Positions 5,723 to 9,887 of a stretch of 64,000 bases of DNA are shown here, in pieces (position 1 is the stretch's first letter; every line of letters begins with the position of its first letter). Under the pieces are notes generated by a model. The model saw nothing but the letters and a program-made list of their open reading frames with translations. It made no database searches and had not been told where the DNA came from. Source of the DNA: Anoxynatronum buryatiense (GTDB lineage Bacteria; Bacillota; Clostridia; Peptostreptococcales; Tindalliaceae); contig NZ_FXUF01000018.1 in NCBI RefSeq assembly GCF_900182905.1, positions 1 through 64,000 on the forward strand, written 5' to 3'. The position numbers and the translations under genes were made by a program.

Positions 5723-6235
5723 TTATGTTAAAGTGGGTTTCGCCGGACCGTAAAGCTCGTTCACCTCCTTCCCTCGTTTGTTGTGAACCAGCGAGACGTC
5801 ATGCAGGTTCACAATAACCAGCCGAACATAAACCCAGCCTTTGAGGCCGAAAAGAAATGACTTTTCATATTTTTTCTTCTGTATGATTTGCTGAAGTAAA
5901 AGATCTGGACTTTCCGTGGTAAGGATGATTCCGTTAATAATGGTCGACATATGTTCTTCATGTGGCACCGGCAATTCATCTGCCGCTTTTACCAGCATCT
6001 GCCAGAAATCTTCAAGGTTTCGCTCTGTCAATCTGTCAATCGTTTTGATGAAAACGTGTTCCATATTCTCAATGGCATATACTTTAATTTTTTTTGAGGC
6101 AAAATAGCGTTCATTTCGAATCGATGAACTGGCATACATTGCCAGCGGATGCCGCTGATATTCAGCAGGCCTCTCAATATCAAAATAGGCTGCCAGCCTG
6201 CCTTCAATCAAGTCGAGATAGGCAGTTTCTTCCAT
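5723..6235 (-). CDS. Conserved protein of unknown function, cstA partner
   Basis: A 170-residue soluble protein with no signal peptide or membrane helix. I do not recognise a named family. It has a charged N-terminal region (MEETAYLDLIEGRLAAYFDIE), a basic stretch near residue 45 (RYFASKKIKVYA) and a C-terminal hydrophobic patch that resembles beta strands (GWVYVRLVIVNLHDV). The start has a strong GGGAGGTACCC ribosome binding site. Placement 28 nt upstream of cstA suggests a cytosolic partner or regulator of the transporter. It lies 110 nt after the ubiquitin-like operon, with no clear terminator between, so read-through from that operon is possible. Confidence 0.75.
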   Translation of the reverse strand: MEETAYLDLIEGRLAAYFDIERPAEYQRHPLAMYASSSIRNERYFASKKIKVYAIENMEHVFIKTIDRLTERNLEDFWQMLVKAADELPVPHEEHMSTIINGIILTTESPDLLLQQIIQKKKYEKSFLFGLKGWVYVRLVIVNLHDVSLVHNKRGKEVNELYGPAKPTLT

Positions 6236-6345: not shown

Positions 6346-6705
6346 TCACAAAAACTTGACAATATAAATGCCGCCGCTCAAAATCAGCACCACTGCTGCC
6401 GCTATCATCCATGCCTTCCACCGCCGAAACATACCGCTTGAAACCGGAGAGGGGTCATCAAAATCAATTTCAATAATCGGCAGTTTCTGGCGTCGGTGGG
6501 GCGATATGGATGGGTTCGCCAGTCGATGTCCCTTGCAGCCGTAGGTGGTGCAGCGTCCATTTTCCATCCAGCATTGTAAATGGTGGGGCATTTTGCAGCA
6601 GGAACAAACCACCGTGTTTTCTCCCATTCGAATCGGGGCCTGACAATAGGGACAGATTGCATTTTCGAAGACATGCTGTTGTTGACGTTTTTGCATATTA
6701 ATCAC
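6346..6705 (-). CDS. Tail-anchored RING-type zinc protein of the ubiquitin-like operon (candidate E3)
   Basis: A 119-residue protein. Residues 18-57 form a binuclear treble-clef pattern: C18-x2-C21, C34-x2-C37, H41/H42, C45, C52 and C57, with CPYC and HHLQCW as clear RING-like landmarks. A polar linker is followed by one hydrophobic segment at the extreme C terminus (about 98-117, AWMIAAAVVLILSGG), predicting a tail-anchored membrane protein with the zinc domain in the cytosol. Prokaryotic RING families with membrane helices in Ubl/E1/E2/JAB neighbourhoods have been predicted computationally. An E3-like role is inferred, not shown. The start is GTG, overlapping the JAB stop by 8 nt; an ATG three codons later is the alternative. 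It is the last gene of the operon. Confidence 0.85.
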   Translation of the reverse strand: MINMQKRQQQHVFENAICPYCQAPIRMGENTVVCSCCKMPHHLQCWMENGRCTTYGCKGHRLANPSISPHRRQKLPIIEIDFDDPSPVSSGMFRRWKAWMIAAAVVLILSGGIYIVKFL

Positions 6706-7774
6706 CAGTTTTGTATAATAATAAGTACTGCCCCACTTCCAGATTGTCCGGATTCTCCAAATTGTTCAATCGCATGACATGTTCGTACTCCATGGGGTCT
6801 TGATAGAATCGCCGGCTGATGGACCACAGTGTATCCCCCGGATTGACAGTATACAGGAAAAACCGCTCGCCGGATAGCTGGACCACCAGTTCGCCCATCT
6901 CCTGATTTTCCTGCTGTATTTCAAGCAACTGCTGTTCAAGTCGATCCACCTGATCTGCCAATGCCGTCGCCTGCTCCTGGTATAGTTGCTGTTCCATAAC
7001 CGGCGGAGCTTCGTCCGGCGTGACCAATCGATGGGCATTGGAAGCTGCCAGTAACAATACCAGCAACACCATCAGCAGGTTCATCCACAAAGGCACCGAT
7101 TTTCTGCTGCCCGTAGATTTGGTGCCTGTGATGGGCTTTTGATGGCTGCTTCTCCTGACTTGCTTCTGCGTTTGATATGCCGATACATTTTTGTTCTGTT
7201 GCAAATCCATCGACTCTTCTGTATCTGCCTCTTGCCAGTGATCAGTCTCTCCCAAACGATACACAGCCGGCTTGATTTCCGACCCTTCCCAGGCAAAAAA
7301 ACCCTGCTCATGCTTCACCGGATCAATGACATAAGCCACCTGCCATGGCAAGTTGAAAAAGTTTTGCTGGATGAACAGATCGTAGGCAGACAGAAAAATC
7401 CCAAAACCGGGATGAGTATGAAACCAGCCGACGATTTTCAGCTCGGGATAAAGGATTTCTTTCTCATGGTGAATCTGATCCCATGTTTCATGTGTGAAGG
7501 TGAGGGATGTTTTATTGGCTGACGTTTTTTTCGCCTTCAGCATTGCCGTCACTTCCAGCATCACCTGCTCTTCTGTTTCCTGAGGGATTCCCAGCAATAT
7601 ACCCCCCAACTCCTTACCGGTGTCCGATGATGCATAATCATAAATCTGCTGATACACCTGGGGATCAAGAGAGATACGCACCTGTTGATGCCGGGGCGGC
7701 AATGCCCGCACTTCACCCAGCTCAATGTCAAAATCCAGGGACTGATCACCGGTCTCCCGGGGGGTAGCCGTCAT
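6698..7774 (-). CDS. Membrane-anchored JAB/MPN metalloprotease with coiled coil and LysM
   Basis: A 358-residue candidate deubiquitinase-like peptidase. The N-terminal JAB/MPN domain (about 32-175) has the complete JAMM set: E55, H119-T-H121 (GWFHTHPG), S129 and D132. A low-complexity linker (about 185-225) leads to one transmembrane helix (228-247), a predicted coiled coil (about 262-300) and a C-terminal LysM domain (307-354, YTVNPGDTLWSISRRFY...LEVGQYLLLY). The likely topology is JAB in the cytosol with coiled coil and LysM outside, near peptidoglycan. The start ATG has AGGAGGAACCAAC. In known bacterial Ubl systems the JAB enzyme trims the Ubl precursor or removes it from targets. The fusion to a wall-binding module is unusual. 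Confidence 0.93.
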   Translation of the reverse strand: MTATPRETGDQSLDFDIELGEVRALPPRHQQVRISLDPQVYQQIYDYASSDTGKELGGILLGIPQETEEQVMLEVTAMLKAKKTSANKTSLTFTHETWDQIHHEKEILYPELKIVGWFHTHPGFGIFLSAYDLFIQQNFFNLPWQVAYVIDPVKHEQGFFAWEGSEIKPAVYRLGETDHWQEADTEESMDLQQNKNVSAYQTQKQVRRSSHQKPITGTKSTGSRKSVPLWMNLLMVLLVLLLAASNAHRLVTPDEAPPVMEQQLYQEQATALADQVDRLEQQLLEIQQENQEMGELVVQLSGERFFLYTVNPGDTLWSISRRFYQDPMEYEHVMRLNNLENPDNLEVGQYLLLYKTGD

Positions 7775-7808
7775 GTTGGTTCCTCCTCTTCAAAGAATGG
7801 TTGCCGGA

Positions 7809-8378
7809 TCACCAAAGCTTGATATCCACATCATCGGGCTTCTCCAGCTTCCGCTTCGCCGGTTTTAGGGTGATGGAAAAGTCATCCTGTTCCCGGTTGC
7901 CCATGAGAATCTCCGGTTCAGGCTGCCACAAGTCCACATTATCCGCCGGAAATAGATGGGTATTTTCGCGGGCCCAATGAGAGGCTTCGATATTCAGCGG
8001 ACTTTTGGGATTGTAGTTTTTATACTGAATCATGTCACCTATCTGAATGATGATATCTGTCAACCGCTCACCGGCACCCCAATAATCGCCGATACACACC
8101 TGAAAACGGAAATTAGGGTGAAAAATAGGTGTTTTCATCTGGCAGCGGGGCTTTTCCCTGGGATAGGCGGCATGCAGGTAAACCTCCACCTGATGACGGT
8201 TGGTCAGTACCGGCTTTCCCGTTCTTTCGTCCAACTTGAATCCCTTCACCTTATATGTGACCAGATACTTATCTGGCGGGTCGCCTGAAATGGGCTCAAT
8301 ATCAATATGGGGATGTCGGGCAAATTCCAGCTTCAGATTATCATAATCCGACGCCAGTCGCCGTAATCGCGCACTCAT
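7809..8378 (-). CDS. E2-like (UBC-fold) ubiquitin-conjugating enzyme
   Basis: A 189-residue protein with a strikingly eukaryote-like UBC core: a YPREKP loop, then TPIFHPN (HPN at 87-89), the putative catalytic Cys95 in VCIGDYW, and a following helix containing DIIIQIGDMIQY and NYNPKSPLN. About 50 residues of charged C-terminal extension follow. The ATG at 8378 overlaps the E1 stop as ATGA and has GGAGG 8 nt upstream; the in-frame ATG at 8384 is too close to that site. It should accept the Ubl from the E1 encoded just upstream as a thioester and pass it to a target. Function is inferred from fold motifs and the operon. Confidence 0.92.
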   Translation of the reverse strand: MSARLRRLASDYDNLKLEFARHPHIDIEPISGDPPDKYLVTYKVKGFKLDERTGKPVLTNRHQVEVYLHAAYPREKPRCQMKTPIFHPNFRFQVCIGDYWGAGERLTDIIIQIGDMIQYKNYNPKSPLNIEASHWARENTHLFPADNVDLWQPEPEILMGNREQDDFSITLKPAKRKLEKPDDVDIKLW

Positions 8379-9592
8379 GGGCATTTCCTCCCTGTCTGTT
8401 CTGTTGCGGAAAATTCAGCCGGGCTGCTGAAGACCCGCTGAATATCGCCGGTTAATTCAATATACACGTTTTGGAGACCATCTCTGCCATGTAGGATCTC
8501 CCCCGGGGCAAAGCCCAGAGCTTGAAGTGTTTCATTGGCAAAGACCTCGGTTCCTGTAAAGCGATGGGTCATTTCCAGGCTCATTTCATCTCCGCAAGCA
8601 CTGCAACGAGCCTCTTCCTGGGCCACCTGAATGAGCGGTCTGTAAAAAGACTTCTCCCCGCCACAAAGACATGTACCTGTGAGCACCCATTCCTGAGGGG
8701 TTTCCAGAACGGTTTTCGGCGTGAGCTGTTGCTGCAATGCTTCAACAGCCTGTGCCAGTGTGGTGTTTGCCGCTGTGAAAAGACGCTCTGTCACCGGTTC
8801 CCAGTTTTCATGACTGAAGCAGTCCTCCCGCCTTGTATAGGTAACCGTGTAGGAATCATGGGTGAGCCCATTAAAGACAAAGCCCTGGCCTGACAAGGGT
8901 CTCAAGGCAGGGTCACCATGAATCAGTTTCACTGCCTCCTGCACCTGAATGCCGGCAATGACAGAGGCCGTGGTGGGGGTGGTGGGCACCTTGCCTGAGA
9001 GCATTTCCTGCCGGGTAAGCAGTGAGCAGGATTTTCTGAAATTCAGCAGACGATAGTCTGTTTCATTCATGGTGCATTCATAGCAGGCACTTGCAGGGGG
9101 TATGAACACCCGGGCAAATCCCTGAAACACTTCAATGGCACCGTCAATCCAGGGGGTGCCCGCTTTCCAGCATTTCTGGTTGATGGCCAGCCGGGCTTCC
9201 CGGTTATCCAGACCGCCCAGCACCACATCCACATGGCGAAAAAAACCATTTCCCACATCAGTAATGATATTTCCCGTCATGGGAATGGCCTTCACATCCG
9301 GGTTAAGGGCCATCACCTGCCGGGCAGCTGTTTCAGCTTTCAGGGCACCTTCATCGGTTTCCCGGTAGAGCACGGCCCGGGATAGGTTGGAGTTTTCGAT
9401 ACGATCCATATCCACCACCAGGATGGTTCCCACACCCAAAAGCGCCAGGTTTTTAAGTATTTCGTTACCGATGGCACCGGCTCCCACCACCATGACCCGG
9501 GCCTGCCGCAGTTTTTCCTGATCCCACCAGGGAATCAGCCGCAGCCGCGCATAGCGATCTTCCCTTTCCAAGTCAATTTCAATGGGTTTCAA
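8375..9592 (-). CDS. E1-like ThiF/MoeB-family Ubl-activating enzyme
   Basis: A 405-residue adenylating enzyme. The Rossmann ATP site is VVGAGAIGNE (about 35-44), followed by DMDRIENSNLSR (61-72), GGLDNREAR and the typical PTTPTTASVIAGIQVQEAV helix (203-221). CYEC (170-173) supplies one metal-binding pair, and Cys189 in KSCS is the best candidate for the thioester cysteine. The C-terminal part has CLCGG and CSACG, a probable second zinc ribbon. The start is TTG at 9592 with GGGAGG 7 nt upstream; no Met-initiated alternative preserves the N-terminal helix. It probably activates the Ubl encoded 22 nt upstream and loads the E2 encoded downstream. Confidence 0.93.
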   Translation of the reverse strand: MKPIEIDLEREDRYARLRLIPWWDQEKLRQARVMVVGAGAIGNEILKNLALLGVGTILVVDMDRIENSNLSRAVLYRETDEGALKAETAARQVMALNPDVKAIPMTGNIITDVGNGFFRHVDVVLGGLDNREARLAINQKCWKAGTPWIDGAIEVFQGFARVFIPPASACYECTMNETDYRLLNFRKSCSLLTRQEMLSGKVPTTPTTASVIAGIQVQEAVKLIHGDPALRPLSGQGFVFNGLTHDSYTVTYTRREDCFSHENWEPVTERLFTAANTTLAQAVEALQQQLTPKTVLETPQEWVLTGTCLCGGEKSFYRPLIQVAQEEARCSACGDEMSLEMTHRFTGTEVFANETLQALGFAPGEILHGRDGLQNVYIELTGDIQRVFSSPAEFSATEQTGRKCP

Positions 9593-9600
9593 TGGGTTTC
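9581..9600. repeat. 10-bp tandem duplication at the E1 start
   Basis: AATGGGTTTC is repeated exactly twice in tandem (9581-9590 and 9591-9600). The copies cover the space between the E1 ribosome binding site and the first codons. Loss or gain of one copy would shift the TTG start relative to the Shine-Dalgarno and the frame, so this may be a slippage-prone site. Confidence 0.8.
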
Positions 9601-9614
9601 CTCCCGGCTAAAGC

Positions 9615-9887
9615 CTATGATCCGGCTGTAATCTCAGGCTGCAAACGCAACACGTCATCTTCAGCCACGCCGGCTTCTTCAAGGGTCTGTTCATCCGTTA
9701 GCTGTTTGCCTGAGGCTTTATGAATAAATTTGTAGCTGATGGGATTCCCGTCGGGACCGGTCATCGGAAGTTCCATTTTCTCTGCCAGTTTCACCAAAAT
9801 CCGATTTACCGGCACATCATCGGGTAAACTGGCCTGTTGTTCCTTGTTGCCTGTTGTATCCACTATATACACATTTACTTTTCCCAT
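9615..9887 (-). CDS. Ubiquitin-like protein (YukD/EsaB-like beta-grasp)
   Basis: A 90-residue protein with a beta-grasp pattern: the first strand pair around VNVYIVDTTG and QQASLPDDVPV, a helix (VNRILVKLAEKMELP), strands with YKFIHKASGKQL, the TLEEAGVAEDDVLRL turn, and a short tail ending ...EITAGS. It does not end in Gly-Gly: Gly89 is followed by Ser90, so a conjugable end would need loss of one residue, plausibly by the operon's JAB enzyme. The start ATG has GGAGGAGCAGC. It is the first gene of the five-gene operon. Conjugation is inferred from the co-encoded E1, E2, RING-like and JAB proteins. YukD/EsaB relatives also occur in type VII secretion loci, but no such genes are visible here. 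Confidence 0.88.
   Translation of the reverse strand: MGKVNVYIVDTTGNKEQQASLPDDVPVNRILVKLAEKMELPMTGPDGNPISYKFIHKASGKQLTDEQTLEEAGVAEDDVLRLQPEITAGS

Follow-up and report, generated by a model that had tools for sequence, protein, structure and literature searches.

A bacterial operon with the parts of a ubiquitin-like cascade, predicted to act at the cytoplasmic membrane in Anoxynatronum buryatiense

Introduction

What does a bacterium do with a full set of ubiquitin-like conjugation proteins, and where in the cell would it use them? This question is raised by an operon at 6346-9887 on the minus strand of a 64,000-nucleotide (nt) stretch of the Anoxynatronum buryatiense genome (assembly GCF_900182905.1, contig NZ_FXUF01000018.1, positions 1 to 64,000), which we refer to as the window. 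The operon encodes, in this order, a ubiquitin-like protein (Ubl), an E1, an E2, a JAB metallopeptidase and a RING-type protein. It is a complete minimal bacterial set of the parts of a ubiquitin-like cascade, and its family extends across at least nine phyla. The first bacterial clusters of Ubl, E1, E2 and JAB genes were described by Iyer 2006 (PMC1779556).

We consider it on balance probable that the five proteins form a self-contained machine for conjugation and deconjugation of the Ubl, acting on envelope-associated proteins on the cytosolic side of the cytoplasmic membrane. The initial annotation identified the five genes. To this our analysis adds a conserved PEITAG tail on the Ubl, a shared docking-like motif, and the FHA-domain and protease partners found in relatives.

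Results

Gene set of the operon

The five genes are adjacent, co-directional and close-packed.

9615-9887, minus strand: Ubl, 90 amino acids (aa), single YukD-type beta-grasp domain (PF08817, 7e-10).
8375-9592, minus strand: E1, 405 aa, ThiF domain (9e-57) and C-terminal domain, TTG start at 9592 behind GGGAGG.
7809-8384, minus strand: E2, 191 aa from the first ATG, likely start at the second ATG (8378); UQ_con, 1.6e-8.
6698-7774, minus strand: JAB metallopeptidase with transmembrane (TM) segment and LysM domain, 358 aa (PF01398, 5e-12; LysM, about 2e-11).
6346-6705, minus strand: Prok-RING_1 protein with C-terminal TM segment, 119 aa, GTG start or alternatively ATG 6696 (PF14446, 1e-10).

The identities proposed in the initial annotation were borne out by hidden Markov model (HMM) searches for YukD, ThiF, UQ_con, JAB and Prok-RING_1, and the Pfam matches of all five proteins exceed the curated cut-offs. 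The description of a tight operon also held, with the overlaps depending on the choice of start codon. The gaps are 22 nt between the Ubl and E1 genes and 34 nt between the E2 and JAB genes. The E1 and E2 genes overlap by 4 nt from the second E2 ATG, which has a GGGAGG site, or by 10 nt from the first. The JAB and RING genes overlap by 8 nt from GTG 6705 or are separated by 1 nt if ATG 6696 is used. A promoter scan gave no candidates above shuffled sequences, and predictions from a terminator scan were mostly within genes. The E1 cysteine, the E2 HPN and cysteine and the JAMM residues of JAB are all intact.

To collect relatives, we scanned one genome per species with an E1 alignment, which yielded 80 loci. 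The same gene set occurs in about 80 loci, so a chance grouping is excluded. With local HMMs applied to 87 loci, many of which lie on short contigs, we detected the Ubl in 86, E2 in 71, JAB in 75 and the RING protein in 70.

The Ubl and its C-terminal tail

The Ubl has a sub-cut-off match to Pfam ubiquitin (8e-4) and lacks a C-terminal GG; its sequence finishes with PEITAGS.

9621-9638, minus strand: PEITAG, predicted mature C-terminus of the Ubl, from which Ser90 would be removed (conservation).

Among 47 Ubls, P84, E85, I86, A88 and G89 (PEI-x-AG) are each at least 90% conserved. In a larger sample of 79 Ubl open reading frames (ORFs), AG is terminal in 30, and 38 have 1-11 extra residues with no common sequence; 4 of the remainder are longer and 7 are without the PEI-x-AG motif. 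Because a conserved glycine followed by a variable tail is also seen in ubiquitin and SUMO precursors, we predict conjugation through G89, with Ser90 trimmed off. This pattern argues for use of the C-terminal glycine in chemistry.

Within the home family, identity is 90-94% for the Ubl, 65-69% for E1, 45-55% for JAB and 47-55% for the RING protein. Few proteins here evolve as slowly as the Ubl (nonsynonymous divergence, dN, 0.055-0.10), whereas JAB and the RING protein evolve fast. High conservation is as expected for a Ubl that would have many partners.

E1 and E2

9026-9028, minus strand: C189 of E1, predicted thioester cysteine (FRKSC), invariant in 51 E1s.
8094-8120, minus strand: E2 active site HPNFRFQVC (C97), from conservation.

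The nucleotide-site residues of E1 and its zinc knuckle (CYEC...C-x2-H) are, like C189, invariant in these 51 E1s. C189 lies about 16 residues past CYEC, the same spacing at which UBA3 holds its catalytic cysteine. A sequence search of the PDB with E1 gave UBA7, UBA1 and UBA3 as the best matches (122 to 89 bits), with MccB (76), ThiF (71) and MoeB (69 bits) lower; judged by these scores (122 versus 70 bits), E1 is nearer in sequence to eukaryotic E1s than to MoeB or ThiF. Structure prediction agreed with the ThiF-type assignment made earlier. The AlphaFold model (predicted local distance difference test score 90) has a MoeB/ThiF core, its closest match (Z 31), and a further C-terminal domain. 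Residues 9-383 of the model align full-length along UBA3, SAE2, UBA7 and UBA1 with a root-mean-square deviation of 5-8, which points to a probable difference in domain placement from these E1s. The model fits, and does not settle, a C-terminal domain that is an E2-binding domain like the ubiquitin-fold domain (UFD) of E1s.

Among 41 E2s, H89, P90 and N91 are invariant and C97 is conserved in at least 90%. The PDB sequence matches of the protein are E2s.

Membrane and wall anchoring of JAB and the RING protein

7379-7420, minus strand: JAMM metal site H-x-H-x7-S-x2-D of JAB (sequence); this motif also served to sort relatives.
7022-7099, minus strand: JAB TM segment, aa 226-251, with positive charges on its N-terminal side (hydropathy scan).
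6719-6853, minus strand: LysM domain of JAB, aa 308-352, predicted outside the membrane (PF01476, 1.7e-11).
6535-6654, minus strand: zinc finger of the RING protein, C18, C21, C34, C37, H42, C45, C52 and C57 (conservation in 40 relatives).
6358-6414, minus strand: RING TM segment, aa 98-116 (hydropathy; helix 91-118 in the model).

The initial annotation had both proteins membrane-anchored, and a TM segment was found by hydropathy in each. The positive charges N-terminal to the JAB segment orient the protein with its JAB domain inside the cell and its LysM domain beyond the membrane. The RING protein is predicted to be tail-anchored with its finger on the inner side. TM segments were also found in most relatives (71/101 JAB and 78/93 RING proteins), as well as in 36 of the 37 proteases described below.

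The family assignment of the RING-type protein stood, with all 40 relatives matching Prok-RING_1. Its ligands, however, are in C4HC3 order (seven invariant in the 40 relatives, C57 in at least 90%), and the family name is not a demonstration of E3 activity. Prok-RING_1 fingers in loci L008-L036 often belong to proteins of roughly 300 aa, mostly in genomes without any Ubl system.

A shared acidic/hydrophobic motif

A strand of alternating acidic and hydrophobic residues recurs in E2 tails, JAB N-termini, RING linkers and protease tails. In the operon, a matrix trained solely on nine protease tails picks out four sites.

7863-7886, minus strand: docking-like motif DDFSITLK, E2 tail (13.0 bits).
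7812-7835, minus strand: docking-like motif DDVDIKLW, E2 C-terminus (14.0 bits, reached by 4/400 shuffles).
7715-7738, minus strand: docking-like motif LDFDIELG, JAB N-terminus (15.4 bits, reached by 0/400 shuffles).
6457-6480, minus strand: docking-like motif PIIEIDFD, linker between RING finger and TM segment (7.6 bits, reached by 6/400 shuffles).

With the same matrix the motif was found in 31 of 74 E2 tails (shuffle mean 5.4, maximum 11), 27 of 100 JAB N-termini (mean 3.8, maximum 8) and 12 of 93 RING linkers (mean 1.3, maximum 3), in loci that share descent and hence are not independent. The ends of neighboring genes were at shuffle level or below (3/383 and 9/383 versus 5.3 and 7.0), and the N-termini of the FHA cluster (c1) were not above shuffles (2/30). 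At 10 bits or more, the motif occurs in 32/66 loci with E2 and 34/69 loci with JAB compared to 12/386 control ORFs, where gene starts were assigned automatically and some control ORFs are not genes. Matches at the E1 N-terminus (EDRY region) were excluded because they are part of the conserved start of E1. Planctomycetota and Acidobacteriota have other forms of the motif or no clear form.

The acidic/hydrophobic pattern resembles SUMO-interacting motifs (SIMs). Its position in the operon's JAB and RING proteins, as in the protease tails, is on the side of the membrane predicted to be cytosolic, which is where the Ubl should be; from the resemblance and this placement we read it as a putative Ubl-docking motif. 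Our proposal, held tentatively at a little short of an even chance, is that a SIM-like docking code on E2, JAB, the RING protein and the membrane-protease tail of relatives binds one highly conserved Ubl non-covalently. This would be a bacterial counterpart of SUMO and SIMs, coupled to a conjugation cycle that is tethered to membrane and wall and uses a PEITAG-ended (not GG-ended) modifier. It is possible, and somewhat less probable, that the motif instead binds another partner, for example the E1 C-terminal domain, an FHA domain or a common scaffold. Protease tails of gut Clostridia have the sequence RTDFDID, a possible fit to an FHA domain if the threonine were phosphorylated, but the motif also occurs without the threonine and where no FHA gene is present, as in the Anoxynatronum operon.

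Relatives and their neighborhoods

Loci bearing the E1 were found in Bacillota (including gut Lachnospiraceae and Oscillospiraceae), Armatimonadota, Planctomycetota, Acidobacteriota, Actinomycetota, Ignavibacteriota, Nitrospirota, Bacteroidota and Chloroflexota, as well as in some candidate phyla. The Anoxynatronum genome groups with Tindallia (Tindalliaceae, Bacillota) in the E1 tree. Within the home order E2 is present in 5/60 genomes, all of the home family.

Two extra genes recur. The first, in 37 loci, encodes a protease of trypsin/HtrA-like type that has a membrane segment; the second, in 28 loci by BLAST cluster, encodes a membrane protein rich in glycine and bearing an FHA domain, a count that includes some unrelated ORFs (e.g. 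ABC ATPases). In many Lachnospiraceae and Oscillospiraceae, the C-terminus of E2 continues into a fused glycine-rich membrane segment and FHA domain (L059:11183-13063).

The genes flanking the Anoxynatronum operon are metabolic: glmS, glmM, cstA, a 2-oxoacid:ferredoxin oxidoreductase cluster, butyrate kinase/phosphotransbutyrylase-like genes and a sigma-54 activator, some of them named by reading the sequence. Throughout the home family the operon keeps a single place beside the 2-oxoacid:ferredoxin oxidoreductase and cstA genes. Also adjoining cstA in this family is a gene at 5723-6235 on the minus strand (P0006), encoding a 170-aa protein with no family match. We ruled it out as a sixth component since it is confined to the family and keeps to the cstA side even when 2.8 kb from the RING gene. 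In three relatives, genes for a 564-aa and a roughly 265-aa protein lie between the two.

Several other arrangements were seen. Four loci (L048, L061, L066 and L049) have two E2s, of which the first is without a long tail, together with two or three copies each of JAB and the RING protein. One of them, in Gelria, has the one M48-family peptidase gene identified, between E1 and JAB (L049:5938-6774). A further locus (L038:4861-15665, genome G147) has the Ubl, E1, JAB, LysM and RING followed by two large genes read from the sequence as GTPase-like, with no E2 found nearby. The one plasmid-borne relative, a distant E1 with E2 and JAB, is on a mobilizable Crinalium plasmid (L126, NC_019754.1) and lies immediately ahead of a type IV secretion coupling gene. 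Gut-Clostridia operons have genes for an XRE regulator, ImmA/IrrE (Peptidase_M78) and a zinc ribbon upstream (L059:7448-9637, L085:2575-3780), and several also have a tyrosine integrase upstream. The setting in gut Clostridia is mobile and possibly stress-induced.

Discussion

We infer a cycle in which any tail on the Ubl is first cut back to PEITAG, probably by JAB. The Ubl would then be adenylated by E1, held at C189 and handed on to E2 at C97. E2 would attach it to proteins at or near the membrane under the guidance of the tail-anchored RING-like protein, and JAB, held in the membrane with its LysM domain on the wall side, would take it off its targets. The motifs on E2 (two copies), JAB and the RING protein most likely bind the Ubl non-covalently, as SIMs do, and would keep the cycle in place. 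A likely purpose is the marking, during stress, of envelope-associated proteins that membrane proteases would then handle. We favor handling of envelope proteins because the recurring partners are membrane proteins and a protease.

Several observations weigh against this reading. Neither the protease nor the FHA gene is present in the Anoxynatronum operon, a minimal version of the set. The motif of its RING protein is weak at 7.6 bits, and shared descent limits what the motif counts can carry. YukD of Bacillus subtilis, a Pfam relative of the Ubl, is reported to be unconjugated (PMC1779556). Prok-RING_1 is over the cut-off in 26/398 genomes of the phylum compared to 3/398 with the operon-type E1; it is thus common without this E1, so its presence is no proof of E3 activity.

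The main rival is anti-phage defense, in which the Ubl would be conjugated, as in Bil, to phage or host proteins during infection and the membrane would be the site of phage DNA entry or virion exit. It takes this place because related Ubl systems are defensive (CBASS Cap2 and Bil act in defense and Bub is a putative immunity system; PMC10097602, PMC12687455, PMC13373217) and because gut-Clostridia operons adjoin XRE, ImmA/IrrE and integrase genes. The patchy distribution in the phylum (3/398) and the distant set on a cyanobacterial plasmid also fit defense. By contrast, in Anoxynatronum and its family the operon has its fixed place beside metabolic genes, the Ubl evolves slowly (though JAB and the RING protein do not), and PADLOC models matched only the E1 and JAB folds, with none for E2 or the Ubl and just E 0.95 for the RING protein. 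On this evidence we regard a defense role as rather unlikely. The metabolic setting described in the initial annotation stands for the Anoxynatronum genome, but given the gut-Clostridia neighbors it does not allow the conclusion that the system is not defensive. A viral origin was dropped, as searches of 2.9 million viral contigs for E1 and of 50,697 phage records for E2 found no relatives.

Alternatively, conjugation may be real and the Prok-RING_1 protein a zinc-finger membrane adaptor rather than an E3, with E2 transferring the Ubl directly. Comparisons of the RING model were weak and mixed. Foldseek ranked PHD fingers first with no match reaching E 0.05, which together with the C4HC3 ligands and the many Prok-RING_1 genomes without the operon-type E1 would suit an adaptor. 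VIA-align, however, ranked RING E3s first, if weakly (HRD1, Z 4.8; RNF165, Z 4.7), and the finger is present in 70/87 loci. We think an adaptor doubtful, about as much so as defense. That there is no conjugation, and that the Ubl is a sulfur carrier like ThiS/MoaD or a non-covalent scaffold like YukD, is very improbable: E1 is in the ThiF family with a model closest to MoeB and ThiF, and B. subtilis YukD is reported to be unconjugated, but the operon has a dedicated E2 with invariant HPN and near-invariant cysteine, a JAMM peptidase, a UBA3-like cysteine placement and an E1 C-terminal domain absent from MoeB/ThiF.

The conjugation and deconjugation machine at the membrane that we favor can be approached experimentally, since the tail signature and shared motif turn the question of its role and site into small direct tests. 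The motif also bears on whether SIM-like Ubl-binding motifs predate eukaryotes. Neither the PEITAG pattern nor the shared motif turned up in the searchable literature; key papers lie outside it, and the novelty of these two features is therefore provisional. We found no function for the operon family in the accessible literature.

Comparison with known systems

Among bacterial systems, CBASS Cap2/Cap3 and the 6A-MBL cap2_3 have E1, E2 and JAB chemistry in common with this operon. Their E1 and E2 are fused, whereas those of Anoxynatronum are separate genes; the 6A-MBL model NF058523 scores 41 bits against a cut-off of 320, and no cGAS-like gene is among the operon neighbors identified. Membership of CBASS type II or 6A-MBL was ruled out on the unfused genes and this score. 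The anti-phage system Bil (BilABCD) likewise shares a Ubl, E1, E2 and JAB, but it is without a RING protein and its Ubl, BilA, has two domains like ISG15 (PMC11354881). The single 90-aa domain of the Anoxynatronum Ubl rules out Bil, and the BilD model matches E1 over the nucleotide-binding fold only. YukD/EsaB of the type VII secretion system (T7SS) is of the same fold family (PF08817) but is without E1 and E2 partners. The Pfam-identified neighbors of the operon are all metabolic and include no T7SS genes, and a T7SS YukD, which would be recognized by neighboring ATPase and WXG100 genes, was rejected.

The closest likenesses are in organization. The Caldiarchaeum subterraneum operon likewise has five genes, for ubiquitin, E1, E2, RING and an Rpn11-type JAB (Nunoura 2011, as outlined in PMC4197634). 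The Anoxynatronum operon differs in its YukD-type Ubl, the PEITAG end and the membrane and wall anchors. The archaeal ubiquitin of C. subterraneum is closer to eukaryotic ubiquitin. Burroughs, Iyer and Aravind (2011, Mol Biosyst 7:2261) reportedly predicted YukD-like Ubls and an E1 UFD in bacteria. In the outline given by PMC4197634, which cites Burroughs 2011, phylogenetically diverse bacteria (Actinobacteria, Planctomycetes and Acidobacteria) have operons related to the C. subterraneum set, with the same five parts in one bacterial operon. The Anoxynatronum operon, with its single-domain Ubl, E1 with cysteine and C-terminal domain, stand-alone E2, intact JAMM site and RING-type finger, belongs to this type of system, which has been predicted since 2011.

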